NCBI GenBank assembly: GCA_902802815.1
Contig: CADCNQ010000001.1
Location: 1 to 64,000, forward strand
Length of the DNA: 64,000 nucleotides
Source of the DNA: an uncultured Bacteroidales bacterium
GTDB lineage: Bacteria; Bacteroidota; Bacteroidia; Bacteroidales; Bacteroidaceae
Direction of reading: 5' to 3'
Part shown: positions 3,474 to 63,992 of the stretch, piece after piece
Layout of the letters: the number at the start of each line of letters is the position of its first letter
How positions within the stretch are numbered: the first letter of the stretch is position 1
Notes under the pieces: model-generated
What the model saw: only the letters and a program-made list of their open reading frames with translations
The model's database searches: none
Told to the model about the DNA's origin: nothing
Translations under genes and position numbers: made by a program

Positions 3474-3926
3474 ATGTTTGACAAAGCAATTCAGTTTCTG
3501 AAAGACAACAAAGAGATTGCCCTTGCAACGTGCGAGGGCAATCTTCCTAAATTGCGCATTTTCCAGATTATGAAACAGGAAGGCCATGTGCTCTACTTTG
3601 CCACTTCTGCCCAGAAGGCTGTCTATAAGGAGTTACGCCAGAATCCCAATGTTGAGATACTGGCGTATGCTGATAATATTTCCGTCAGATGTTCAGGTAT
3701 GGTGAACTTCAATGTGGAGGACGATGTGAAGCGATGGATTTATGACAACAATGCGGTGCTGCCTCGTCTTTATATGAGCTATGACCAGATGGAATACTTC
3801 TGCCTGCCGATAGCCGAAATGGACTATTACAACCTCTCACCCACTCCACCCGTTTTTCAACATTTCGACCTCATTGCAGGCGAGACAGGCAACGGTTTCG
3901 TCGGTGAAAGATTTAAGAACAATTGA
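3474..3926 (+). CDS. Pyridoxamine 5'-phosphate oxidase-family flavin-binding protein
   Basis: The 150 residues fit the split-barrel PNPOx-like family of FMN- or F420-binding oxidoreductases. The N-terminal pattern FLKDNKEIALATCEGNLPKLR followed by VLYFATSAQKAVYKELRQNPNVEI is the typical beta-barrel core with the flavin-phosphate binding segment. Small members like this are generally not true pyridoxamine oxidases but general flavin reductases or sensors. It is cotranscribed with the cupin gene and probably controlled by the HxlR regulator, which suggests a role in handling redox-active compounds. The substrate is unknown. Confidence 0.85.
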   Translation: MFDKAIQFLKDNKEIALATCEGNLPKLRIFQIMKQEGHVLYFATSAQKAVYKELRQNPNVEILAYADNISVRCSGMVNFNVEDDVKRWIYDNNAVLPRLYMSYDQMEYFCLPIAEMDYYNLSPTPPVFQHFDLIAGETGNGFVGERFKNN

Positions 3927-10144: not shown

Positions 10145-12085
10145 CTACAGATTCCTCTGGAACGGGCTCATGGGGAGCCCGTTCCTTCCATATACGTTGG
10201 CACGGATGGGATTGTTTTTCCAGGCGTACCGTATGGAGACGGGACTCGCGACGGGCGAGGTAATCACAATGCGGCTGCCGCAGCCCTCCGCCTTGGCATT
10301 GACATAGAGGCCGTCGCTGCCAGCCACCTCAAACTCATAAAGCTCACCGTCGTGAAGCAGCGGCTGAGACAGCGTGCACACCACCGTCCCATTCTCAAGC
10401 GAAGCCGACACCACTTCCGGTGACAACAGTGTGCGCGGATTCCACAGCAGACGCTCAAGAGCCAAAGCAACGCGTCCCGCCACTTCTTTTTTACGCAGAG
10501 GATGAATATCCACAGTTTCACCGAGGTCTATGGTCACAGTCAGTTCCGCCCGGGCGTCCCCGGCAGCCACTTCACGCTGCGCCTCGCGCACCACAGACCA
10601 ACCCGTGTGCTGGGGTTTGTCGGAGGGCTCCATATAGTTGGCAAGCTGAATGATGACAAACGGAAGCTGCGGACGCCCGAAAGCCTGGCGCCAGTTGGAC
10701 ATGAGCAGGCGCAGCATAGCAGCATATTCGCGAGCCTGCGTCATATCACCGGCGTTGGACTCGCCCTGATACCACAACACACCGGCCAGCGCGTAGGGAG
10801 CCATCGGACTTATCATGCCGTTGAAGAGTACGGAAGGCAGATTCTGCAAAGTGATGCCACCGCCCGGACAGCGAGGCATCTCCATTCCCGTGCACAGTTT
10901 CCAGCGCTGCCCGAGAGGCTGGACATCGTCCTTGCCGAACACCAGACGGTAGGGCTTCTCTTTCACAAAATAAGGTATGCCGCTCTTATTGACAAAACGC
11001 ACGGCTATGACGTTGTCTCCTTCGCGCAACACACCCTCCGGCACCTGATAGCGGCGCGGGGGATACTGATAGCCCGTTGTGCCCACCTGGACACCGTTAA
11101 TGTAGGTAATGTCACTGTCGTAAAGCGTACCGAGAAGCAACTGTGCCGCCTTGCCCGCGTGCTCCTTGCTGATGCTGATGTGCTGACGCAGCCACAAACT
11201 GCCTATCCACTCGCGACGACCGGACAGCGGCGAGGGCGAGGCTGTAAGATTATATTGATCCACTTCCGTCCATCGGGAATCGTCGAAATCCGGACGGGTG
11301 TACTCCCCCACTCCGGGATCACCGGCATCGAGCATCCCGCGCCAGCTCTGCTCGGAAAGCGAGGCGGCACGCTGCCGGGCCTGCACCATTCCGTCGTCCT
11401 GACAGAGCTGCGTCTGACGATAGAGCACGGGATAGTGCCTGGCTATGGTGTCGGAGGCTATCCACGCCTCAACGGGCGTACCGCCCCATGCGCTCTCTAT
11501 GATGCCCTGGGCCACACCCGTCCTGCGCTGCAACAGTTTGCCCAGAAAATAACCGATAGCGGAGAAACGCCAGGCATTTCCACGGTTGAGACGCTGCCAT
11601 GCAGCGGGGCGCAAGTCGGAGGAAGGCCCGTGGGTGTCAGTCTGATACTGCACATGAAACAGGCGCACCATATCGTTGCTGTCGTTGAGTTCGTCAGGAT
11701 ATTGCGGCGACACGCGTTCGAGGGTGGTCTCCATGTTCGACTGTCCGGAACAGAGCCACACGTCTCCTATCCACACATCATCCAGTGTCAGTTGAGAACC
11801 GGGAGTTGAGAGTTGAGAGTTTACCGTAAGGACATACGGCCCTCCGGCCTTCATGGCAGGAATGTCCACACGCCAATGTCCGCCGGCATCGGCTGTCGCG
11901 GTGCACTTTTTCCTGTTCAGGCTCACTGTAACTGTTTCCCCCGGAGCGGCCTGTCCCCAAACAGGGATGTCGGTGCCTCTCTGCAGCACCATGCCGGACT
12001 GGAATATCTGCGGAAGACGAATTTCGGCGCTGCACACGGCCACACCGAGCGTCAACGTCCATAGTATTGTAATCATTTTTCTCAT
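10145..12085 (-). CDS. Sialate O-acetylesterase-like SGNH esterase (CE20-type acetylesterase)
   Basis: This secreted protein of about 646 residues has a signal peptide from the ATG at 12085 (MRKMITILW to CSAE), a beta-sandwich region, and an SGNH-type esterase whose nucleophile is the serine of CSGQSNM. The Asp-His partner lies in DIHPLRKKE near residue 535. Family members remove acetyl groups from sialic acid or from xylan and xyloglucan; the xylan context favours hemicellulose deacetylation. The central region (about 205-385) contains an inserted jelly-roll, as in CE20 proteins. An upstream ATG at 12124 lies before the promoter (12093-12100) and cannot be used. In-frame repeat DNA at 11786-11821 adds NSQLSTPGSQLT just before the catalytic domain. 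Confidence 0.87.
   Translation of the reverse strand: MRKMITILWTLTLGVAVCSAEIRLPQIFQSGMVLQRGTDIPVWGQAAPGETVTVSLNRKKCTATADAGGHWRVDIPAMKAGGPYVLTVNSQLSTPGSQLTLDDVWIGDVWLCSGQSNMETTLERVSPQYPDELNDSNDMVRLFHVQYQTDTHGPSSDLRPAAWQRLNRGNAWRFSAIGYFLGKLLQRRTGVAQGIIESAWGGTPVEAWIASDTIARHYPVLYRQTQLCQDDGMVQARQRAASLSEQSWRGMLDAGDPGVGEYTRPDFDDSRWTEVDQYNLTASPSPLSGRREWIGSLWLRQHISISKEHAGKAAQLLLGTLYDSDITYINGVQVGTTGYQYPPRRYQVPEGVLREGDNVIAVRFVNKSGIPYFVKEKPYRLVFGKDDVQPLGQRWKLCTGMEMPRCPGGGITLQNLPSVLFNGMISPMAPYALAGVLWYQGESNAGDMTQAREYAAMLRLLMSNWRQAFGRPQLPFVIIQLANYMEPSDKPQHTGWSVVREAQREVAAGDARAELTVTIDLGETVDIHPLRKKEVAGRVALALERLLWNPRTLLSPEVVSASLENGTVVCTLSQPLLHDGELYEFEVAGSDGLYVNAKAEGCGSRIVITSPVASPVSIRYAWKNNPIRANVYGRNGLPMSPFQRNL
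10159..10185 (+). terminator. Perfect 11-bp hairpin inside the 3' end of the esterase gene
   Basis: GGAACGGGCTC and its exact complement are separated by a 5-base loop, 20 bases after the GH43 stop. The hairpin overlaps the last codons of the convergent esterase. Only a weak pyrimidine run (TTCCTTCC) follows, so termination is plausible but not certain. Confidence 0.5.
11786..11821. repeat. Degenerate GTTGAGA repeat inserted in frame in esterase gene
   Basis: The plus strand shows CAGTTGAGA, GGGAGTTGAGA and GTTGAGAGTT in close succession. On the coding strand this reads in frame as NSQLSTPGSQLT, between the beta-sandwich (GPYVLTV) and the catalytic block (LDDVWIGD). Confidence 0.65.
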
Positions 12086-12092
12086 GGCACCG

Positions 12093-12100
12093 CAAAAATA
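12093..12100 (-). promoter_or_regulatory. Bacteroidota -7 element for the esterase gene
   Basis: TATTTTTG on the minus strand, only 8 bases before the ATG at 12085. The transcript would be almost leaderless, or would use the ATG at 12076. Confidence 0.6.
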
Positions 12101-12155
12101 CACATTTTTCTTTTCATAAAGCATAAGACAAGAGATAAAAGTCGAAAAAAATTAT

Positions 12156-13590: not shown

Positions 13591-13724
13591 CCAATAACCA
13601 TTCGAACAAGCCGAACGCAGAAAAGCTTGCTTATTATGCTGAGGCGCGGAGAATGTCTGCGGCGAACAGCCGCGAACCAATAACCATTAACCATTAACCA
13701 ATAACCAATAACCCTTAACCAAAA
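13591..13724 (+). repeat. Intergenic TAACCATTAACCA-type tandem repeats
   Basis: CAATAACCATT occurs near 13591 and again near 13676. The stretch 13675-13720 is a run of AATAACC/ATTAACC words ending 5 bases before the GH43 ATG. The segment between holds CGAAC/GCCG-rich words. No promoter is seen, so the downstream genes probably depend on the symporter promoter. Confidence 0.7.
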
Positions 13725-14756
13725 ATGAAGCCCCGCTATCTATTCCCCAATGACTATATGGCAGATCCCGCTGCCCACGTGTTCAACGGCAAACTGTATA
13801 TCTACCCATCCCACGACCGCGAGTGTGACAACGTGTTCGACGACGACGGCGGACACTTCCAGATGCGCGACTACCACGTGCTGTCGTTTGACGACATCGA
13901 GAACGGTGCCGTGACCGACCACGGTGTGATTCTCGACCAGGACCAGGTGGCATGGGTGGAGAGCCAGCTGTGGGACAGCGATGTGGTGGAGAAGGACGGC
14001 AGATACTACCTCGTGTTCTCCGCCAAGGACTACAACGGCGAGTTCCACCTCGGCGTGGCGGTTGCCGAGCGTCCCGAGGGACCGTTCAGGGCCCAGGAGC
14101 ACCCGATTCGCGGTGCATACAGCATCGACCCCTGCGTGTTCAAGGACGACGACGGTGAGATATACTGCTACTACGGCGGACTGTGGGGCGGACAGTTGCA
14201 GTGGCACGTGCCTCTGAGTGTGCAGCCTCTCAAGCAGAGCGACAAGGATGCGGCTCCTGCGGGCCACGTCGATATAGGCCACGCCCCCGACAAGAAGACC
14301 GAGCTGTGGGCTCCCTGCGACGCTCCGGCGCTGACGAGCTATGTGGCCAGGATGTCGGGCGACGTGATGCAGTTTACCGAGGCTCCGCGTCCGGTGGTCA
14401 TCCTTGACGGGAACGGACGACCCCTGCGCGCCGACGACCCCCACCGCTTCTTCGAGGCCAGCTGGATGCACAAGCGCGGCGGAAAGTACTACTTCTCCTA
14501 CTCCACCGGCGACAGCCATCTCCTGTGCTATGCCACGGGCGACAACCCCTACGGCCCCTTCACGTATCAGGGCGTGGTGCTCGAACCCGTCGTGGGCTGG
14601 ACCACCCACCACTGCATCGTCGAGTTCAAGGGCCAGTGGTATCTGCTGTATCACGACTGCGTGCCTTCCGGCGGTGTCACCCACCTCCGCTCGCTGAAGG
14701 TGCAGCAACTCTTCTACAACGAGGACGGAACCATCAAGACTGTCGTCAATGAATAG
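13725..14756 (+). CDS. Cytoplasmic GH43 beta-xylosidase/arabinofuranosidase
   Basis: This 343-residue protein has no signal peptide, so it should act in the cytoplasm on imported oligosaccharides. It is a single GH43 propeller with catalytic Asp14 (YMADPAAHV), Asp135 (YSIDPCVF) and Glu244 (RFFEASW). The length and the opening MKPRYLFPNDYMADP match short GH43 xylosidase/exo-xylanase proteins from Prevotella xylan clusters. Its stop overlaps the GH67 start by 8 bases, which indicates translational coupling, and the symporter lies just upstream. Together they would import and hydrolyse xylo-oligomers. Xylosidase versus arabinofuranosidase activity is not certain. Confidence 0.9.
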   Translation: MKPRYLFPNDYMADPAAHVFNGKLYIYPSHDRECDNVFDDDGGHFQMRDYHVLSFDDIENGAVTDHGVILDQDQVAWVESQLWDSDVVEKDGRYYLVFSAKDYNGEFHLGVAVAERPEGPFRAQEHPIRGAYSIDPCVFKDDDGEIYCYYGGLWGGQLQWHVPLSVQPLKQSDKDAAPAGHVDIGHAPDKKTELWAPCDAPALTSYVARMSGDVMQFTEAPRPVVILDGNGRPLRADDPHRFFEASWMHKRGGKYYFSYSTGDSHLLCYATGDNPYGPFTYQGVVLEPVVGWTTHHCIVEFKGQWYLLYHDCVPSGGVTHLRSLKVQQLFYNEDGTIKTVVNE

Positions 14757-16536
14757 CCTGAAGACAGCCGTCACAGTGATGCTCCTCTGCCTGTGCTCTG
14801 CGGCCCGGCCCGAGGACGGCAGCCGTCTGTGGCTGCGCGGCGAGATGCCCGCTGACATCATTCTGCGCATCGACTCCACGATGCCCGACGACGACGGTTA
14901 CCGCATCAGCGGCCGCACCGTCACGGCCCGCACCGAGAGGGGTCTGCTCTACGGACGCTACGCCCTGCTGCGCGGCGAACAGGGAGAGTCGCACCCCTTC
15001 TACCGTCTGCGCATCCTCAACCACTGGGACAACCTCGACGGCAGCATCGAGCGCGGATATGCCGGGGCCAGCATCTTCTGGGAGAAATCGTCCGTCGACA
15101 CCCAGCTCATCCGGCGCTACGGCGAGGCCTGTGCCTCCGTCGGCATCAACGGCACGGTGCTCAACAACGTGAACGCCTCGCCGAAGATGCTTACGCGTAA
15201 ATATATCAAGAAGGTGAAGGACATCGCCGACATCCTGCGTCCGTGGGGCATCAGGGTGTATCTCTCCGTGAATTTCGGTACGCCGAAAGCTTTGGGCGAA
15301 CTACGGACGGCCGACCCGCTCGACCCGCAGGTGCGCCTCTGGTGGCAGAAGAAGGCTGAGGAGATATACGCCGCCATCCCCGACTTCGGCGGTTTTCTCG
15401 TGAAGGCCAACAGCGAGGGACAGCCCGGCCCGTTCGACTACGGACGCACACACGCCGACGGCGCCAACATGCTGGCCGATGCGCTGAAACCCTACGGCGG
15501 CATCGTGATGTGGCGCTCGTTTGTCTATGGAGCCAAGCATCAGGGAGAGGACCGCGTGAAGCAGGCCGTGTCGGAGTTTGCCGAACTCGACGGGCAGTTT
15601 CGCGACAACGTGATACTGCAGTCGAAAAACGGCCCCCTGGACTTCCAGCCGCGCGAACCCTACGCCCCCGTCTTCGACCACATGAACCGGACGGCGCAGA
15701 TGGCCGAACTGCAAATCACGCAGGAATATCTTGGGCAGAGCCGGCATCTGGTGTATCTGGCCCCCATGTGGAAGGAGTTCTTCTCCTTTGTCAGTCCCGG
15801 GCGCCTGGTGGGCATCGCCGGTGTGGCGAACATCGGTATGGACACCAACTGGTGCGGCCACCATTTCTCACAGGCCAACTGGTACGCTTTCGGCCGCCTG
15901 GCATGGAATCCGGAGCTCTCGTCGGAGCAGATAGCCAAGGAATGGCTCACGCAGACCTTCGGGAACGACAGTAATTCTCAACTGTCAATTATCAATTCTC
16001 AATTATTGGACGTGATGCTGCGCAGCCGTGAAGCCTGTGTGGACTATATGATGCCTCTCGGACTGCACCACATCTTCAAGTTCGACCACCACATGGGTCC
16101 CGACCCCGGCGGCTACAAGGCCAGCTACCCCATCGAGTGGTGCCCCGTGTACTACCACCGCGCCAACAGGGACAGCATCGGCGTGGACCGCAGCAGCACG
16201 GGTACGGGTGCCACCCTGCAGTATCGCGAGCCCTACCGCTCACTCTACGACAACATCGGGACCTGCCCCGAGAGGTATCTCCTGTGGTTCCACCGCGTGC
16301 CCTGGACGCGCCGTCTCAGCAGCGGGCGCACCGTGTGGGAGGAACTGCAATACCTCTACAACCGCGGTGTCGGGGAGGTGGATTCCTTCGCCGCCGTCTG
16401 GCAGCAGGCAAAGCCCTACATCGACGCCCGGCGCTGGCAGGAGGTGGAGGAGCGCCTAGAGTTCCAGCAAAAGGACGCCCGTCTGTGGCGCGACGTGTGC
16501 CTCGACTATTTCGGTCGCTTCGCCACCCGGGAATAG
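14749..16536 (+). CDS. GH67 alpha-glucuronidase
   Basis: This 595-residue protein matches the GH67 family. The N-terminal non-catalytic domain is short (the family is usually 650-700 residues) and is followed by the TIM barrel with NHWDNLDGSIERGYAG, GINGTVLNNVNA, SVNFGTPKALGEL, GGFLVKANSEGQPGP and NWCGHHFSQANWYAFGRLAW. GH67 enzymes remove 4-O-methyl-glucuronic acid from the non-reducing end of aldouronic acids. The first 20 residues (MNSLKTAVTVMLLCLCSAA) form a signal peptide, so it probably works in the periplasm. It is coupled to the GH43 by an 8-base overlap. Degenerate repeat DNA at 15970-16007 inserts SNSQLSIINSQL in frame near residues 408-420. Confidence 0.93.
   Translation: MNSLKTAVTVMLLCLCSAARPEDGSRLWLRGEMPADIILRIDSTMPDDDGYRISGRTVTARTERGLLYGRYALLRGEQGESHPFYRLRILNHWDNLDGSIERGYAGASIFWEKSSVDTQLIRRYGEACASVGINGTVLNNVNASPKMLTRKYIKKVKDIADILRPWGIRVYLSVNFGTPKALGELRTADPLDPQVRLWWQKKAEEIYAAIPDFGGFLVKANSEGQPGPFDYGRTHADGANMLADALKPYGGIVMWRSFVYGAKHQGEDRVKQAVSEFAELDGQFRDNVILQSKNGPLDFQPREPYAPVFDHMNRTAQMAELQITQEYLGQSRHLVYLAPMWKEFFSFVSPGRLVGIAGVANIGMDTNWCGHHFSQANWYAFGRLAWNPELSSEQIAKEWLTQTFGNDSNSQLSIINSQLLDVMLRSREACVDYMMPLGLHHIFKFDHHMGPDPGGYKASYPIEWCPVYYHRANRDSIGVDRSSTGTGATLQYREPYRSLYDNIGTCPERYLLWFHRVPWTRRLSSGRTVWEELQYLYNRGVGEVDSFAAVWQQAKPYIDARRWQEVEERLEFQQKDARLWRDVCLDYFGRFATRE
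15970..16007. repeat. Degenerate AATTCTCAA/TCAATTATCAA repeat in frame inside GH67
   Basis: The words AATTCTCAA, CTGTCAATTATCAA and TTCTCAATTATT follow each other within the gene and translate as SNSQLSIINSQL. The same words form intergenic repeats at the end of the window (63960-63992), which marks this as repeat DNA rather than ordinary coding sequence. Confidence 0.75.
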
Positions 16537-36276: not shown

Positions 36277-36588
36277 GTGGGCAACCTGCTCTACACCTCC
36301 GGTCAGATACCCATCGACCCCGCCACGGGACAGATTGTGGAGGGCGGCATCGAGGCACAGACACGCCAGTCGCTGCTCAACGTACAGGCAATACTGAAGG
36401 AAGCCGGAGTGACAATGGGCAGCGTGGTGAAGACCACTGTGTTCATGGCCGATATGAACGACTTCCCCGCAATGAACGCCGTCTACGCGGATTTTTTCAC
36501 ACAACCCTTCCCTGCACGCTCTGCCGTAGCGGTGAAGACTCTGCCGAAAGGCGCTCTGATAGAGATAGAGGTAGTGGCCGAAGTCTAA
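36277..36588 (+). pseudogene. RidA/YjgF family protein lacking its N-terminus
   Basis: The sequence is a clear RidA enamine/imine deaminase from residue 12 or so onward: NLLYTSGQIPIDPATG, SLLNVQAILKEAGVTM and FPARSAVAVKTLPKGALIEIE. Homology extends upstream of the GTG at 36277 to 36259 (YSQAIQVGN), but no ATG exists and the usual first 14-17 residues are missing. The frame reaches straight back to the stop of the flavodoxin-like gene. A deletion of about 45 bases, or an assembly error, removed the start. A GTG start would give 103 residues without the first beta-strand and the Tyr that contacts substrate. It is probably inactive or made by rare readthrough. The 3' end overlaps the convergent efflux gene. 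Confidence 0.65.
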
Positions 36589-37928
36589 AGACCCACTGAC
36601 TGGCGATACTCCAGTAGGCGGTTATGGTAGTCGGCAAAAGCATCGGTGTACTTGTCGCGCGACTGCTGATAAAGCATCTGGGCCTCAAGGAGGTCAGTCA
36701 TACGTGAGGTGCCGGCGCGATAGTAGTCGCGATTGAGGCGCAGATTCTCTTCCGCCTGTTCGATGCTACTCGCTGCAATCTGCAGTTGCTGGTATGCCTC
36801 CACCACATTGTTCCAAGCATTCTGCATACCTATCTTCATCATCTCCGCATTGTCGGCAAGTTGCTCCTGAGCCTTCTTCTGTTCCAGTTTACGACGACGG
36901 ATGGCATACGAACCGCCCCACCAGTCGCTGAGAGGCACACTGACGGTGGCATAAATCATGCCGAAACTGTGGTTGGTGTCCAACAGGTCGTGATAGTTGT
37001 AGCCGGCACCGACAGCCACCGTGGGCAGATTCTCTCCTATAGTCATCTTCCTCTGCAGGGAAGCGACTTCCACTTGCTTGTTCATCAGTTTGTACTCCGC
37101 ACGCGAGAGGAGTGCAAGGTCATGGTCCTGCCGGGACATCAGGGGCGAAGATACAGACTCATCATAGACAATGGAGAAGGATGTGTCGCGCAACCCGCAA
37201 TATTGCGAGAGAAGCTGGCGCATGAAAGAGAGATTGTTCTGCAGCGTGAGCTTCTGACTGGCAACTTCGTTCTGTCGCAACTGCACCTGCAGCATATCGT
37301 TGCGCATAGCCACACCGGCACGCACGGCAACGTCCACATCCTTGCGCACATCAGCCAGCATGGCCTCCACGGCAAGCACGGTATTAAGTTTCTCCTGCAT
37401 CGTGGCCACCTGCCAGAAATACGACTCGGCAGTCTTCTCTACATTATTCTCTGAGAGCTGCATCTGCAGACGGCTGACATCCTCCCCAACTCGTGCAAGA
37501 CGGTTGCCGTAGACGATGCGACCGCCAGTGAATACGGGTTGAGTGGCCATCACCGAACCCACCATACCGTTCTTGAGCATCGTCATGGTGATGGGAGTCC
37601 CCATTGCTGCGAGAACACCAGAGGGAAGAATCTGGGCAAGAGTCATACTAATGTCTGCAGGCAGCACCTCAGCAGGATTCACAGAGAGCTTGGCCATACC
37701 GTTGTTAGTATTGAAGATGAAACCTCCGGCGCTGATACCCGGGAAGTATTTGGTGAACGCCTCCTTGCGCTGCTGACGGGCAGCCTCAATGTCGTAGCGG
37801 GCAGAACGCACTGCTATATTGTTGTGCAAAGCCGAATCTAAAATCTGCTCCAGAGAGTAGTGCCGCTGAGCCGTTGCAAACAAACTGCAGCACACAAGGG
37901 AGGCGGTGAGGAATATTGTCTTTTTCAT
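36585..37928 (-). CDS. TolC-family outer-membrane efflux protein
   Basis: This 447-residue protein has a signal peptide (MKKTIFLTASLVCCSLFATAQ) and no lipobox, unlike the duct protein of the other triad. Two outer-membrane efflux repeats are seen, with HYSLEQILDSALHNNIAVRSARYDIEAARQQRKEAFTKYFP at the start and TVSVPLSDWWGGSYAIRRRKLEQKKAQEQL in the second half. It forms the outer-membrane channel for the RND pump encoded 2 bases upstream. The three genes (41127, 37931, 36585) form the second complete tripartite efflux operon. The substrate is unknown. Confidence 0.92.
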   Translation of the reverse strand: MKKTIFLTASLVCCSLFATAQRHYSLEQILDSALHNNIAVRSARYDIEAARQQRKEAFTKYFPGISAGGFIFNTNNGMAKLSVNPAEVLPADISMTLAQILPSGVLAAMGTPITMTMLKNGMVGSVMATQPVFTGGRIVYGNRLARVGEDVSRLQMQLSENNVEKTAESYFWQVATMQEKLNTVLAVEAMLADVRKDVDVAVRAGVAMRNDMLQVQLRQNEVASQKLTLQNNLSFMRQLLSQYCGLRDTSFSIVYDESVSSPLMSRQDHDLALLSRAEYKLMNKQVEVASLQRKMTIGENLPTVAVGAGYNYHDLLDTNHSFGMIYATVSVPLSDWWGGSYAIRRRKLEQKKAQEQLADNAEMMKIGMQNAWNNVVEAYQQLQIAASSIEQAEENLRLNRDYYRAGTSRMTDLLEAQMLYQQSRDKYTDAFADYHNRLLEYRQSVGL

Positions 37929-37930
37929 GA

Positions 37931-40900
37931 CTATTTAGTGCTAACTTTCCAATAAACAACGGGTAGCATTGTAACCACCATGATAAGCGAACCGATACCG
38001 CCGGCAAATATTGTCACGCCCACCGGCATCCAGAACGACGACTGGGCAATAATCATCGGCACCACACCGACAGCCGTAGTGGCTGTGGTGAGGAAAATGG
38101 GCACCATACGACGCTTGCCGGCTTCGTAGGCAGCCTGCTTCACCGCACCGTTGTAGGCCTCCCGGTCCACCGTCCAGTCACCGTGCTTCGAAACATACTT
38201 CTGTATCAGATCGATGGCATGCTCGAAGATGAGAATCTCATTGCGCATGATAATACCCATTAGAGTGATAAGTCCGAAGATGGATGTAAGACCGAGTGCA
38301 CGGTTCATCAGAGCAAGACCGATGAGCGCACCCGGCATCATCAGCGACAACGCTGCCATACACACGGTAGTGATACCATATTTCTTGAAGTTGAACAGCA
38401 GGAAAAAGAAAACGATAATCATTGCAATGGTAATACCGTAAATAATCTGCGGCATAGCCTCGTTGCCGTATTCTATCTCACCACCCACCTCTGTACGCAC
38501 GCCCTGCGGGATGTCTATCTCCTCCTGCATAATACGGGCCAGTTCACGCTCGACGGGAGCCGTATATATCCCCTGCACAAACTCCGCCGTCACTGTGATG
38601 CAGCGCTCGCCGCCGCGATGCACGATACGGCTCTCGCTCCACTGGGGCTGCACCGAAGCTATCTGGCGCAAGGGAACTGTGGTGTTGGTGGAAAGTGGAG
38701 AGTTGAAGGTGGAGAGTTGAGCATTGAGAGTTGAGAGAGAGGACGAGAATGTCGAAGTGGGCGTAGCGACACCCAAATTAGCCACATCGGAGTATGTCAT
38801 GTCGGCATCGTCCTTCACTATAATCGGCACTTCGTAATCGCCCTCCCATATCTGTCCCACACGCAGGTCGGCAGAACCTGCACTGAGAGCCAGCTGTGCA
38901 GTGGCGCGAGTGAGTCCGAGACGGGCCGACTCCACAGGATCCAGCCTAACGTTGATGATGGGATACGGCTGCAAATAATCGGTGTGCACCCACTCCAGTT
39001 GAGGGAACTGACGCATACGTTCCATCATACGCTCCGCCACCACGTGGAGAGAATCCATATTCTCACCATAGAACCGGTATTCCAGTTCAGGCACCTCAAG
39101 ATAGTCGAGCCTCTTGAACTTGACATACGCACCCGGGAACGCCTCGCCAAGTTTGGGCTGATACTCCGAAAGGAGGTCGAGAGTGGTCTGCTGAGAACGG
39201 GTGTTGACAATGAACTGAGCATAGTTGCTACCAGCCATCTGGGGAGCATACACATCCATAAAACGCGGCGAAGAACAACCTATAAAGCCGGTGATATTCG
39301 TTATACGTTTATCGTCCGCCAAAGAATTGTAGACGGAATCCGCTATACGTTCAGTCTCCGCGAGACCTTTGCCTTCGGGCAGGAATATCTCCACAGCAAA
39401 CTGGTCGCGGTCGGCATAGGGAAAGAGACGCACCTTCAGCAGGGGAACTATCAAACACGATGCCAGGATGACACAAAGTCCCAGCACCATCGTTGTCCAT
39501 GGACGCCGGAATGTCCAATCCAGAACATAGTCATAGAGCCGCTGCACTCCTTTGGTGATGGCGTTGCCGTCTGTCCTCACCTTGCCCGGACGTATTATCT
39601 TCACCTCCAGGAACGGAATAACAGATACCGCCAGGAGAAGCGACACCATAAGGTTTATGGTGATGGTCCACGGGAAATCCACGAGCGCATCGAGGAACAT
39701 ACCTTTCATCGTGAAGAGGAAGGGGAAGAATATGGCACATATACACACCGTGGCGAGCATCATAGGCATAAAATACTGCTGCACGGAATCTATCGCCGCA
39801 CGCTTCGGTTCGTAACCCTTATTGAGATACTCCAGATAGCCGTCTATCACCACAATGGAATTGTCAACAATCATTCCGAGGACAACTATCAGGGCTGCCA
39901 GCGTCACGATGTTAAGTTCGATACCCACAATATACATTATGGATACGGAGACAAAGGTGCTCAGAGGTATAGTCACCGCAGCCACGATAGCCGAACGCAG
40001 AGGAAAAAGCACCATCATTACAATGATGATTATCAGCATGGATATGAGCAGGTCGCGCAAAAAATCACTGACACTCATACTCACCACTTTGGGTTTGTCG
40101 GCAATGCGCGTCACTTTCACGTCAGAAGGCAGTTCGTTCTTACGGAATTCGTCCAGCACCCGGTCTACATCCCTACCGTATTGCACCACATTGTTGCCCG
40201 GAGTCATTTCCATAGACAACAGAACACAAGGATGCCCATTCTGTTCGATGCGACTTGCCGTCGGCTCGTATTCCCTAACCACTCTGGCAACATCTCTAAC
40301 ACGCGTCACCTTACCCGTAGCAGCATCGGAGAATATTATCTGATTGGCTATCTCCTCCTCGCAGTCTTCCGTAACCTCCACATGGATGGGTATCTGCTGG
40401 TCGTCGTCGCTGATGGCACCGCTCATCGTAGTGAGGCCTTGAGCCTGCAAGCGGGAGAACAGGAACTGCTGACCGATACCGTAAGCCTGAAGGCGCTGAC
40501 GGTCTACATAGAGGGATATCTGCTCCTTGCGGTCGCCGAACATTTTTACGTTGGCAACAGAGGGGATGCGACGCAGACGGTCGCTCAGTTCATCGCTGTA
40601 GGACTTAAGTTCACGATAACTGCGCTGGTCGCTCTCGATAGCTATCAGCAGAGCTGACGTATTGCCGAACTCATCGTTCACTATGACTGCCAGCACTCCT
40701 GCCGGAAGTTGCATCTTGAAGTCTTTCACACCGTGCTTTATCTTGCTCCACACCTCGTCTTTGTTGTTCACATCATCGTTGAGCTTCATCATCACGATAC
40801 ACACGCCGTTCTGAGATGTCGTGGTGGTCTTGGCACGGTTCACCTCACCGAATGTGAAGAGATAGCGCTCCAGAGGACGGGCCACCTGCTGCTCCACTTC

Positions 40901-41083
40901 CTCCGCTGTGGCACCGGGATAGACAGCCACCACTACTCCCTGACGGATGGTGACGTGAGGAAATTCGTCCTTCGGCATATCCCACATACCGAAGATGCCA
41001 AGCACAAACAGTATGCCGATAATGAGCAGCGATATGGAGTAGTGCTCCAATGGCCACTTGAGCCAATTCATCTTCTCTTTCAT
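37931..41083 (-). CDS. RND efflux pump (AcrB/MdtB superfamily)
   Basis: This 1050-residue inner-membrane pump has 12 helices and two periplasmic domains. DMPKDEFPHVTIRQGVVVAVYPGATAEEVEQQV opens the first loop. The proton relay aspartate is in GMIVDNSIVVIDGYL, and GLITLMGIIMRNEILIFEHAIDL is helix 11. It differs markedly from the pump at 28456 and belongs to another Bacteroidota subgroup. It is third in length order but second in the operon, between adaptor and duct. Repeat DNA at 38684-38746 adds about 20 residues (with LSTLNAQLSTFNSPLS) in the second periplasmic loop near residues 780-800, so the gene remains open but carries an unusual Ser/Thr-rich insertion. Confidence 0.94.
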   Translation of the reverse strand: MKEKMNWLKWPLEHYSISLLIIGILFVLGIFGMWDMPKDEFPHVTIRQGVVVAVYPGATAEEVEQQVARPLERYLFTFGEVNRAKTTTTSQNGVCIVMMKLNDDVNNKDEVWSKIKHGVKDFKMQLPAGVLAVIVNDEFGNTSALLIAIESDQRSYRELKSYSDELSDRLRRIPSVANVKMFGDRKEQISLYVDRQRLQAYGIGQQFLFSRLQAQGLTTMSGAISDDDQQIPIHVEVTEDCEEEIANQIIFSDAATGKVTRVRDVARVVREYEPTASRIEQNGHPCVLLSMEMTPGNNVVQYGRDVDRVLDEFRKNELPSDVKVTRIADKPKVVSMSVSDFLRDLLISMLIIIIVMMVLFPLRSAIVAAVTIPLSTFVSVSIMYIVGIELNIVTLAALIVVLGMIVDNSIVVIDGYLEYLNKGYEPKRAAIDSVQQYFMPMMLATVCICAIFFPFLFTMKGMFLDALVDFPWTITINLMVSLLLAVSVIPFLEVKIIRPGKVRTDGNAITKGVQRLYDYVLDWTFRRPWTTMVLGLCVILASCLIVPLLKVRLFPYADRDQFAVEIFLPEGKGLAETERIADSVYNSLADDKRITNITGFIGCSSPRFMDVYAPQMAGSNYAQFIVNTRSQQTTLDLLSEYQPKLGEAFPGAYVKFKRLDYLEVPELEYRFYGENMDSLHVVAERMMERMRQFPQLEWVHTDYLQPYPIINVRLDPVESARLGLTRATAQLALSAGSADLRVGQIWEGDYEVPIIVKDDADMTYSDVANLGVATPTSTFSSSLSTLNAQLSTFNSPLSTNTTVPLRQIASVQPQWSESRIVHRGGERCITVTAEFVQGIYTAPVERELARIMQEEIDIPQGVRTEVGGEIEYGNEAMPQIIYGITIAMIIVFFFLLFNFKKYGITTVCMAALSLMMPGALIGLALMNRALGLTSIFGLITLMGIIMRNEILIFEHAIDLIQKYVSKHGDWTVDREAYNGAVKQAAYEAGKRRMVPIFLTTATTAVGVVPMIIAQSSFWMPVGVTIFAGGIGSLIMVVTMLPVVYWKVSTK
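38684..38746. repeat. Degenerate GAGAGTTGA repeat inserted in frame in RND gene
   Basis: GGTGTTGGTGG, GTGGAGAGTTGA, GGTGGAGAGTTGA, GCATTGAGAGTTGA and GAGAGAGG occur in succession. On the coding strand they read in frame as a Ser/Thr/Asn/Leu-rich peptide between the strand ending GVATPTSTF and TTVPLRQIASV. Confidence 0.8.
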
Positions 41084-41126
41084 AATTACGAATTTGTATT
41101 ATGAATTATGCATTGCGAATTATACG
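41084..41126. repeat. AATTACGAATTATG-type repeat between adaptor and pump genes
   Basis: This 43-base gap is made almost wholly of AATTACGAA, TATGAATTATG and GCGAATTATAC words. Related words recur just upstream of the adaptor gene (42150-42168). No promoter is seen here, so adaptor and pump are probably on one transcript. Confidence 0.6.
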
Positions 41127-42146
41127 TCAGTAAACCACATTCGTACCCTCGCTCAGCTTCTGATAACCCTCCGTGATGATACGCTGACCAATACCAATTC
41201 CACTTGTCACAGATATATAATTGCCCTGTGTCTTGCCGATGGTGACAGGAGTACGGTGCGCCGTGCTGTCACATGCCACCGTCCACACGAACAACGTGCC
41301 GTCGGAGCGTTTCTGCACAGCTGTCACAGGCACCAGTTTTTCACTTCCGTCCTCACCTTCTCCACTGCCGAAGGATACGCTTGCCACCATACCCGGCAAT
41401 AGCTTGCGATCAGTATTTGCCACATTGATACGTATATCGTAGGTGTGCGTCAGAGCATCTGCCTGCACACCCTTCTCTATACGTCCACCCTGATATGTTT
41501 CGTTGGTGGCTTCCACCTTTATCACCGACGGAGTACCTGCGTGGATATCACTTATTTCCGTCTCAGGCACAGACACCTTCACTTTCACACTGCTGATATC
41601 AAGAATAGTTACCACTGCCTGAGAAGGCATTGCCGTCTCACCGGCACCGGTCTGCTTACGGCCTATCACACCGCTCACTGGAGCCGTCAGACGGCAGTCG
41701 GCTAAATTCTTCTTCGCAACCTCAAGCTGTGCATGAGCCTGAGCCACCTTGCTCTGTATCTCCACCCATTGGGCTTCCGTAAGCGAACCGTTGTCATGCA
41801 GCATACCATAGCGCTGCAATGCATCATTAGCCTGAGTCATCGAAGCCTCCGCGCCAATAAGTACGTTGCGGGCCTGAGTGTCATCCATCTCCGCAAGGAG
41901 TTGACCGCTTGTGACAAACTGTCCCTCGCTCACAAACACACGCTTTACAACCCCCATTCCGGTGAAACTCACCGCCGTAGCTTCGCGTTCCTCCACAATG
42001 CCCACATACGTCTGACTGCGACCCTCCGAACCGCGAATCGCCAACTGTGTCACAACTCTGGTAGGAGCCTTGCTCTGCTGCCCCTTCCGCTCCCCACAAC
42101 TGCTGAAAAGAAATACTGTCAGCAGCAATAAGATACTTCTGTTCAT
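41127..42146 (-). CDS. RND periplasmic adaptor lipoprotein (MFP), second triad
   Basis: From the ATG at 42146 the protein has 339 residues, with a lipobox (FLFSSCGERKG, Cys17). The membrane-fusion order is present: RSQTYVGIVEEREATAVSFTGMGVVKRVFVSEGQFVTSGQLLAEMDD, a short coiled-coil hairpin, then LTAPVSGVIGRKQTGAGETAMPSQAV and a beta-barrel. It couples the pump at 37931 to the TolC-like duct at 36585 and is the first gene of the operon. A frame extension to 42182 would lie across the promoter and is not used. Confidence 0.92.
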   Translation of the reverse strand: MNRSILLLLTVFLFSSCGERKGQQSKAPTRVVTQLAIRGSEGRSQTYVGIVEEREATAVSFTGMGVVKRVFVSEGQFVTSGQLLAEMDDTQARNVLIGAEASMTQANDALQRYGMLHDNGSLTEAQWVEIQSKVAQAHAQLEVAKKNLADCRLTAPVSGVIGRKQTGAGETAMPSQAVVTILDISSVKVKVSVPETEISDIHAGTPSVIKVEATNETYQGGRIEKGVQADALTHTYDIRINVANTDRKLLPGMVASVSFGSGEGEDGSEKLVPVTAVQKRSDGTLFVWTVACDSTAHRTPVTIGKTQGNYISVTSGIGIGQRIITEGYQKLSEGTNVVY

Positions 42147-42171
42147 CACGGTATTATACGAATTACGATGA

Positions 42172-42179
42172 CAAATATA
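42172..42179 (-). promoter_or_regulatory. Bacteroidota -7 element for second RND triad
   Basis: TATATTTG on the minus strand, 26 bases before the adaptor start at 42146. Confidence 0.7.
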
Positions 42180-42284
42180 CAAATTTTAGACATTCGTCCG
42201 TCATTTTTTCTTCTCTTTTTATTTATTTATCCTGTTTTTATAGTCTTCAACAGCACAAACTCCACAAACATAAGAGTTTTTTCG

Positions 42285-55517: not shown

Positions 55518-55573
55518 GCATATTTTTTATTATATTTTAAGGTTTTAGGTATATTCTTCCCGCCTACATGCTC

Positions 55574-57487
55574 TTAGGGTGTCGCGCCCTGAGGAGTGGC
55601 AGGGATGAAGTTTATACGGCCATCCCTGTCATAGTTCATCGGTTCGGCAATGACAGAGCGGCTGTAGCTGCCGCCGTCGGCCAAGCCGCCGTTATGTGAG
55701 AAGAAAAGCCACTGATCTTTGAAGCGGACAACAGCGGGATGGGTGGTATTGGAATTGCCGGCTATCTCGCTGATGACGCCCATGGGTGTGTAGGGACCAA
55801 AGATATTGTCAGAAATGGCATAGGCAATCTTCTCCGGCCACCCGCTGGCGTAGGTGAGGTAATATTTGCCGTTGTACTTATGCATCCAGGGAGCCTCTGT
55901 GAATCGTGGCACGTCAATCCTGCGTATCTCACCGTCTATCTCCGTCATGTTGTCCTTCAGTTTGGCGCAGTAGCACTCGCGGTTGCCCCAGATGATGTAA
56001 GGTGTGCCGTCATCATCAATCAGGATGGCCGGGTCGATGCAGGCCCAACTGTGCTTAGAGGCGAAGCAGTCTTTGTTGGTGAGCAACGGCTTTCCCAGGG
56101 CATCCTTGTATGGACCGGTAATCTTGTCTGCTACTGCCACACCGATGCCACACCAGTTGGTGGAAACATACCAGTAATACCTGCCGTCCTTGCCTTTGGC
56201 TACATGTCCGGCGTATGCCTGTTTGCTGTCAGCCCACCTGAAATCATCGATGTGCAGTGGCGACGGGTATGCCGTCCAGTGCTTCATGTCGGTGGTCGAA
56301 TAGAGCAACCAGTCCTTCATCACATATCCTGTCTGATTGCCGGCGGCATCGTGTCCGGCAAAGAGCCACAGCGTGTCGTTTTCCACGAGTGCGGCCGGAT
56401 CGGCTGTGTGTTTGTCCCGGATGACGGGATTGCCGTCAGATTCGAATTCGTGCTTCAGCACATACCCCCACTTCTGCTGCAATCGCTCCAGTTCTTCGGC
56501 TGTCACCGACATCACCGTGCCGTGACGGGGGAAGAAGTCCTTGCGGAACGACTGCGGTTCGCGGGTGAATGTCTTCAGATCCTTCGATGTCTGGTATTCG
56601 TAGCGACCGGAGCTGTAGAGGTCGTACATAAGGATGTATTCGTCCCTTCCGTTCAACTTAAACACTCCGCTACCCTCCACACTCGTCCTCGTGCCAGCAT
56701 AGGCATCAATATACTTGAAATCCTCCTTATACGGTCCCGTCAGTTTCTTGGATGTCGCCTGTTGGATACCATTGTTGATTTCCCTGCCGTTGGCATCCTT
56801 GGTGTTGCCCTTGTAGAAGAGATGATACACGCCGTCCTTCTCGATGATGTCAGCGTCGATGCTGCCGTATTTGGCAGAGAACAGCACCTTCGGTTCGCTC
56901 TCAAAGGCGGTAAAGTCCTTGTTGGCGTAGGCGTAGTAAGTGATGAGCGTCTTGCGGTCGTTGCGCTGCAGCGTGAAATATATCATGTACTTCCGAGCCT
57001 TGCGGTCGTAGATGGTCTGCGGCGCCCACACCCAGAAGGCATCGCTGAAGTGCTCGCTCCAGTCTTTTGAGAGATTAATTTTAGCGTGCGTCCAGTTCAC
57101 CAGGTCCTGCGACTTCAGCAGCACGATGCCAGGGTTTGCGCCCCAGCCCTGTTTCGGGTCGTAGGTGTGCATATCCGTTGCCACGATGTAGTAGCAGCCG
57201 TCCTCGCCGCGCAGGATGTGCGGGTCGCGTATGCCGCCGCTCTCGCTAATGCTGTCAGAAGCGATTATGGGTCTGTTGCCGTTCAGCGCATACCAGTTCT
57301 GTGCGTCCTCGCTCACGGCGAAGCGCAGTTGCTCCATCAGGTTCTGGTCTCCCCCGCCCTCGAAATAGGCGAAGAGATAACCGGCGGCCTCACCCCCTAC
57401 CCCTCTCCGACTGGCGAGGGGAGTAGTTACTTGTGCCGAAGCCTGTAAGGATATTGCCATCAGGAATAGGATTGTCAGTTTCTTCAT
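55574..57487 (-). CDS. Tandem GH43-GH43 secreted glycosidase
   Basis: The 637 residues comprise a signal peptide (1-19, QASAQ) and two GH43-like propellers. The first (about 35-325) has GGIRDPHILRGEDGCYYIVATDMH, WAPQTIYD and SIDADIIEKDGVYHLF. The second (about 340-625) has HTADPAALVENDTLWLFAGHD, CIDPAILIDDDGTPYIIWGN and FTEAPWMHKYNGKYY, with a complete Asp-Asp-Glu triad. The N-terminal half may act on alpha-arabinosides and the C-terminal half as arabinofuranosidase or xylosidase. Repeat DNA (57386-57430) adds TPLASRRGVGGEA right after the signal cleavage site. It follows the LamG-GH43 gene by 36 bases in one operon. Confidence 0.88.
   Translation of the reverse strand: MKKLTILFLMAISLQASAQVTTPLASRRGVGGEAAGYLFAYFEGGGDQNLMEQLRFAVSEDAQNWYALNGNRPIIASDSISESGGIRDPHILRGEDGCYYIVATDMHTYDPKQGWGANPGIVLLKSQDLVNWTHAKINLSKDWSEHFSDAFWVWAPQTIYDRKARKYMIYFTLQRNDRKTLITYYAYANKDFTAFESEPKVLFSAKYGSIDADIIEKDGVYHLFYKGNTKDANGREINNGIQQATSKKLTGPYKEDFKYIDAYAGTRTSVEGSGVFKLNGRDEYILMYDLYSSGRYEYQTSKDLKTFTREPQSFRKDFFPRHGTVMSVTAEELERLQQKWGYVLKHEFESDGNPVIRDKHTADPAALVENDTLWLFAGHDAAGNQTGYVMKDWLLYSTTDMKHWTAYPSPLHIDDFRWADSKQAYAGHVAKGKDGRYYWYVSTNWCGIGVAVADKITGPYKDALGKPLLTNKDCFASKHSWACIDPAILIDDDGTPYIIWGNRECYCAKLKDNMTEIDGEIRRIDVPRFTEAPWMHKYNGKYYLTYASGWPEKIAYAISDNIFGPYTPMGVISEIAGNSNTTHPAVVRFKDQWLFFSHNGGLADGGSYSRSVIAEPMNYDRDGRINFIPATPQGATP
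57386..57430. repeat. CCTCACCCC/CCCCTCTCC interspersed repeat in frame at mature N-terminus
   Basis: CTCACCCCCTACCCCTC and GCGAGGGGAG form a short GC-rich inverted repeat (CCCCTC/GAGGGG). Translated in frame it gives PLASRRGVGGEA between the signal peptide and the conserved AGYLFAYFEGG. It is of a different sequence class from the GTTGAGA-type insertions. Confidence 0.8.
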
Positions 57488-63667: not shown

Positions 63668-63992
63668 AGTAGACGAGTTGTTAGTTCGCTTCGGCTTCGC
63701 TCACGCTCATTCGGCAAGCCGAAAGTAGACAAGTAGACGAGTTGGTTGTTTTCGTTTTCGTCATTTATCATTTGTCATTTATCATTTATCATTTAGCGAA
63801 TGCGTTACGGAATGAGGGCAGACTCTAAATGATAGCCGCAAAATTTTCGTGTCACATTTGTCACATTTGTCACGAAACAAAAAAAATGCCGTCCGCTTGG
63901 GCGACATTTCTTTTTTAGTTGACAAGTTGTTAGTTTTCGTTTTCGTCTTCGTTATCGTCAATTTTCAATTTTCAATTATCAATTGTCAATTA
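63668..63992. repeat. Cluster of degenerate short repeats at window end
   Basis: AGTAGACGAGTTG-type words occur near 63668, 63731 and 63917. TCATTTATCA/TCATTTGTCA words fill 63759-63797. GTCACATTT is repeated within 63844-63877, where outer TTTCGTG/CACGAAA arms make it palindromic. ATTTTCAATTTTCAATTATCAATTG words fill 63960-63992. They resemble the in-frame insertions found inside genes in this window. Confidence 0.75.
63885..63916 (+). terminator. Hairpin with T-tract (intrinsic terminator)
   Basis: AATG-x-CGTCC pairs with GGGCG-x-CATT (one mismatch and one G-T pair, 4-base loop, 63885-63908), followed by TCTTTTTT. It is preceded by an A-run, so it could also work on the minus strand. Confidence 0.6.

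Follow-up and report, generated by a model that had tools for sequence, protein, structure and literature searches.

Tandem heptanucleotide repeats in protein loops of a rumen Bacteroidales bacterium: an in-frame array in an RND efflux pump and its probable origin by copying within the genome

An array of degenerate seven-base units lies in frame within an RND efflux pump gene of a Bacteroidales bacterium that inhabits the rumen. We consider it probable (roughly 60%) that this insert belongs to a family of dispersed heptanucleotide tandem repeats, which is spreading within the genome by repair or template-switch copying. The system is a natural and repeated experiment in which short repeats are turned into protein loops, with transporters and an essential tRNA synthetase among the proteins affected. 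Because the word of each genome labels the source of an insertion, the spread of dispersed heptamer repeats becomes directly testable. In what follows, the window is the whole stretch of DNA analysed, 64,000 nucleotides long. Its features are listed in Table 1.

Table 1. Positions in the window of the pump gene, its neighbours and the heptanucleotide arrays.
Feature	Position	Strand	Remarks
RND (AcrB/ACR_tran family) pump gene, host of the array	37931..41083	-	1050 aa ORF; Pfam PF00873, E 3.3e-141
Outer-membrane-factor-like ORF flanking the pump	36585-37928		candidate
Membrane-fusion-protein-like ORF flanking the pump	41127-42182		candidate
Heptanucleotide array in the pump	38686..38734	-	TCAACTC, TCAATGC, TCCACCT type units; the syntenic G031/L075 site lacks it
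Variable pump loop, residues 770-802 (LGVATPTSTFSSSLSTLNAQLSTFNSPLSTNTT)	38678..38776	-	33 aa vs 20 aa in most orthologues; orthologue comparison, AlphaFold2
In-frame array, sialic-acid acetylesterase-family gene 10145-12124 (-)	11789..11823	-	GTAAGA-type heptads at the same place in G031
In-frame array, GH67 gene 14749-16536 (+)	15971..16005	+	identical in G031
Array AACCAAT/AACCATT, intergenic	13675..13722	.	CTTTAAA heptads at the same place in G031
Array of CATAATT type, intergenic, just upstream of the RND start	41084..41123	.	AATTGAT heptads there in G031
Array TCATTTA, intergenic	63761..63795	+	
Array TCAATTN, intergenic	63958..63992	+	

The pump gene and its array

The ACR_tran domain spans residues 18-1047 of the pump, that is, more or less its full length. 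The protein is homologous to MexK, MtrD and AcrB chains, and a Foldseek search with the AlphaFold2 model matched its fold to MtrD, AdeB, AcrB and their relatives. The two flanking ORFs, named from their sequence alone, would encode the partner proteins. On the coding strand, the array reads TCAACTC TCAATGC TCAACTC TCCACCT TCAACTC TCCACTT TCCACC(A), a run of degenerate 7-base tandem units that TRF calls at 38687-38737 with periods 7, 14 and 21. Its translation is STLNAQLSTFNSPLST, the frame is unchanged and the flanking protein is normal, as an earlier note on this DNA had proposed in describing repeat DNA inserted in frame in the pump. The array is far above chance expectation.

The corresponding loop has 20 residues in about 75 orthologues, for example LGIASPASMVSGGLHSTNST. 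The nearest relative, G031 (= L075), which is 91% identical, has such a plain loop and lacks the array, as do most orthologues, in keeping with the absence from relatives that the earlier note would take as support. Compared with the sister species, the array has taken the place of about ten bases of the old loop, and this is why the net gain of 39 nt (13 aa) falls short of the insertion of about 20 residues that had been suggested. Among the orthologues compared, no distant one was found to carry the same loop in non-repeat codons, and several have other heptad arrays there.

These other arrays are in L039, L057, L082 and L165, whose 29-residue loops are also built of heptads, with unit variants of their own in each. 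When the loop was left out of the tree calculation, the sequences of the window, L039, L057 and L082 fell on separate branches, the window pairing with plain-looped G031 and L082 with plain-looped L107 (100* in both cases). It is doubtful that the heptad loop arose only once, because its carriers are thus separated. Since the four 29-residue loops have their length and a short non-repeat flank (SAA[GA]SQLS) in common, ordinary recombination among them is likely, and the loop may therefore also be exchanged among rumen species and not gained each time. The named carriers of the heptad loop are metagenome-assembled genomes, a point to be set against the explanation by copying. In L017, at about 3828-3880, the same loop is occupied in frame by something different from the heptads, a GC-rich palindromic inverted repeat (CTCCCCCCCACGGGGAGAGTCGGTGGGGGG). 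Heptads also recur in the short interval that separates the fusion-protein gene from the start of the pump, and their words there vary with the species (L041, L048, L060, L082, L092, L105, L110, L114, L115 and others).

The AlphaFold2 model of the pump is of moderate confidence (mean pLDDT 71). Its least confident stretch is residues 785-800 (pLDDT below 50), between strands 771-773 and 802-804, and the loop is placed in the periplasmic half, after TM7. The loop is predicted to be flexible, and the position of the insert in the lowest-confidence loop of the model supports the reading of the earlier note. It could be imagined that the number of repeats or the word tunes the pump or the docking of a partner, and that the arrays are selected. 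The location after TM7 in the periplasmic half would suit such a role, as would the greater length of the same RND loop in several lineages, but its sequence is among the least conserved and, in the model, lowest-confidence parts of the protein, and the same filling is found in unrelated enzymes (HisRS and a decarboxylase, below). We give scarcely any credence to a functional loop of this kind; the inserted peptide is probably near-neutral filler.

Abundance of heptanucleotide arrays in the genome

TCAAYTN arrays, defined as three tandem copies with at least 15 of 18 positions matching, number 87 in 287 kb of this genome, compared with 0, 0, 1, 1 and 2 in first-order Markov replicates; most of these 287 kb were picked around pattern hits and are enriched in arrays, and the unselected count is the genome-wide one. 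That count came to 98 hits for the AT-rich form, whereas the reversed pattern had 5. Markov controls were used because the arrays are near mirror-symmetric, which made a reversed-sequence control for the array detector useless, and it was dropped.

The period of 7 is special. Seven genomes, sampled as contiguous sequence of about 545 kb in total, hold 34 lag-7 arrays, while none of the other lags from 4 to 14 has more than 5. In the genome of the window (G000), dozens of loci have units of exactly 7 bases, as in a dispersed heptanucleotide repeat. The arrays are 21-84 bp of direct heptads (3-12 units), and several words coexist within one genome. Many AT-rich arrays on G000 contigs C3, C4, C12, C18, C19 and C28 lie within about 1 kb of the contig ends, and are thus near repeats that break the assembly.

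Arrays in other genes

Besides the pump, nine family-matched genes of G000 hold in-frame arrays of the TCAACTC family, which makes ten in all. These are GH95, GH97, GH67 and acetylesterase-family genes, histidyl-tRNA synthetase (HisRS), a PLP-dependent decarboxylase (of a subfamily that we take to be NspC-like), an AMP-binding/reductase multidomain gene with two sites, a phosphopantetheinyl transferase and a pyridine-nucleotide oxidoreductase. Two of them, the acetylesterase-family and GH67 genes, are in the window, where the earlier note had already recognised the same word family.

In the sense direction TCAACTC is free of stops in all frames (STLNSQL), while its complement always contains TGA (ELRVES*). 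Arrays that run in the stop-bearing direction lie between genes or at the ends of genes, and in the latter position they provide the stop. An open frame demands the sense strand, and for this reason the sense-strand bias of gene-borne arrays was excluded as evidence. The suggestion that the repeat enters coding regions while keeping frame can be retained in part: a dispersed repeat does occur in frame, but no special mechanism is needed, because frame-breaking inserts are lost and sense TCAACTC is stop-free.

In L143 (10277-10356), two arrays of inverted orientation are both translated within one oxidoreductase gene, and the stop-bearing one has lost its stop through base changes. Several TCAACTC-type arrays directly adjoin TTTTTCGTAYCTTTGC, which resembles a Bacteroidales promoter, the array being just upstream (L121, L122, L123, L126, L127, L132, L142). 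Many TCAATTA-type arrays directly adjoin hairpins of the GGGCGAAGCCC type (L119, L141, L145, L146).

Same site, different word

The loop of HisRS before ELDLTLARGLNYY is plain in most relatives, but contains TCAACTC-type heptads in G000 and G013, TTCACTC in G008, TTCATTC in G014 and TCAATTG in G001. The decarboxylase loop before EGFHCH has TCAACTC in G000, TCACCTC in G017, AGGCAAA in G001, and TTCACTC together with a palindrome in G014; in about 20 relatives it is plain. In a gene that is presumably an isoleucyl-tRNA synthetase, recognised solely by its PADFIAEGVDQTR motif, in-frame heptads precede that motif and their words are unlike between G001:C13:13243-13282 and G014:C11:4902-4946.

Within the window the comparison can be made with G031, which is syntenic, mostly at 86-88% DNA identity. 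At sites 11789, 13675 and 41084 both have heptads, and the words differ. The exception is the GH67 array (window 15940-16020, G031:C47 about 55560-55640), which is identical over about 80 bases in the two species despite flanks that are 86-91% identical (about 12% different), and this counts against a fast turnover. The loop site persists while the repeat word changes.

The words are specific to genomes. Counted as hits, which overlap inside one array and are therefore more numerous than the arrays, AGGCAAA occurs 20 times in G001, its decarboxylase loop included, and not at all in nine other genomes of the genus; TCACCTC has 92 hits in G017 (again with the decarboxylase loop among them), 19 in G014 and 0-3 in the other eight; and TCAACTC ranges from 0 to 340 hits per genome over 61 genomes. 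In the cases examined, which concern the two words AGGCAAA and TCACCTC, the array in a gene agrees with the word of its own genome and not with that of its orthologue. This concordance, which we take as the chief new finding, argues for copying within the genome, and against purely local slippage.

Under slippage alone, the arrays would have grown in place from a chance seed of 7-14 bases, the polymerase would have a preferred step of 7 bases, and similar words would reflect shared base composition. The dominance of period 7 fits this, CTCCAC in the old RND loop of G031 is a possible seed, and heptanucleotides are described as the commonest long simple repeats in most surveyed genomes, with a 7-nt polymerase footprint as a proposed cause (Mrazek 2007, as cited in PMC4679880). 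What slippage leaves unexplained is that AGGCAAA recurs in one genome but is missing from nine congeners, and that it fills the same decarboxylase loop in which relatives hold TCAACTC or TCACCTC. We thus regard slippage alone as unlikely.

Boundaries of the insertion and proposed mechanism

Neither a target duplication nor a terminal inverted repeat, the marks of MITEs and other transposable elements, was found at the pump array by comparison with the sister-species site, and the flanks of 81 arrays have no sequence in common beyond a partial unit. A transposon was rejected on these grounds and for the lack of conserved ends. A short mobile element similar to the Rickettsia palindromic elements or to MITEs, transposed by an enzyme encoded elsewhere, would explain why copies are dispersed, occupy many genes in frame and are missing from relatives. 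However, besides these missing features, the number of units varies from 3 to 12 and the words depend on the species, so that we consider such an element very unlikely. Of the two terms used in the earlier note, mobile or templated, the second is favoured by the words common to gene and genome, while the first, if taken to mean a transposon, is not upheld.

The absence of a target duplication at the pump site, and of a common sequence in the 81 array flanks, is the reason for favouring template switching or gene conversion. When a donor for the pump array was sought in its own genome, the best partial match was 93% over 28 bases and there was no exact one; the plasmid collection searched gave no match. 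From one genome per species, we infer the following course. In the course of replication or repair, strand invasion or template switching would carry array sequence to a new site. Chance homology of a few bases would prime this copying, and about ten bases would be overwritten. The copied array would then grow, shrink and be homogenised through 7-base slippage and gene conversion from existing arrays. Copies that disrupt the frame or introduce a stop would be purged by selection. Those that remain in genes would therefore be confined to flexible loops and to the stop-free strand, and copies on the stop strand would persist between genes or as new gene ends.

A bolder and distinctly tentative version of copying within the genome is that each species has seven-base words of its own, which a word-specific process writes repeatedly into the chromosome, and that when the word changes the same permissive sites are overwritten, including in-frame loops of essential enzymes. 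Genome-specific words would be expected if the writer were, for example, a telomerase-like reverse transcriptase that is specific to a word. In a further alternative, a dedicated enzyme of this kind, with a species-specific RNA template as in DRT10, synthesises heptad DNA that is captured at breaks. It would account for the fixed unit length, the genome-specific words and the replacement of one word by another, and DRT10 is described as making tandem-repeat cDNA from a non-coding RNA, variable in motif and length (PMC12632851). On the other hand, several words coexist in one genome, and the available text on DRT10 presents its products as protein-primed and does not describe their entry into the chromosome (PMC12632851). 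We consider a dedicated enzyme very improbable, and retain repair or template-switch copying of existing arrays as the preferred explanation.

Comparison with known systems

The closest parallel is with the TAACTGA heptamer direct repeats of Beggiatoaceae, cyanobacteria and five Bacteroidetes (MacGregor 2015, PMC4679880). Like the arrays described here, they are dispersed 7-base tandem arrays, mostly intergenic with some in ORFs, whose mechanism is not known, and in both one strand always stops while the other is open (LSVISYQ there, STLNSQL here). The dominant words here, TCAACTC and TCAATTA, differ from TAACTGA/TCAGTTA by one or more bases. Moreover, TAACTGA is a single word common to phyla, and its ORF copies are mostly at protein ends (PMC4679880), whereas here the words depend on the species, copies occupy the interior of conserved enzymes, and the word in a homologous loop changes from one species to another.

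Long simple heptanucleotide repeats, including GGGNATC in Xanthomonas and Nostoc (Mrazek 2007, as cited in PMC4679880; Rehm 2015, PMC4692102), are described in the available text as sharing with ours the unit of 7, genome-wide dispersal, degenerate units and enrichment outside genes and near gene ends. GGGNATC has G-runs and forms G-quadruplexes, unlike the words here, and the in-frame invasion of orthologous loops seen here is not described in the accessible part of that account (PMC4692102).

The Rickettsia palindromic elements are a dispersed repeat that is read in frame as part of numerous unrelated metabolic genes and tolerated by the folded protein (Ogata 2000; reviewed in PMC10969869). 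In so far as the available accounts describe them, the likeness is in the occupation of many unrelated genes, and the difference is that they are palindromic, about 150 bp long and grouped in families, while the arrays here are short direct heptads with no palindrome and a species-variable word. The telomerase-like DRT10 reverse transcriptase, which is antiviral and makes 9-nt repeats in the described case, can be set beside the arrays here because it is described as producing DNA of short tandem repeats, the sequence of which is dictated by a variable template (PMC12632851).

In the literature searched, mostly outside subscription journals, no report of heptanucleotide repeats in Prevotella was found. 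Heptamer repeats and in-frame repeat inserts are each known already, but their combination appears to be new, and what we consider novel is that the words are specific to a genome and that they have entered the same protein loops repeatedly.
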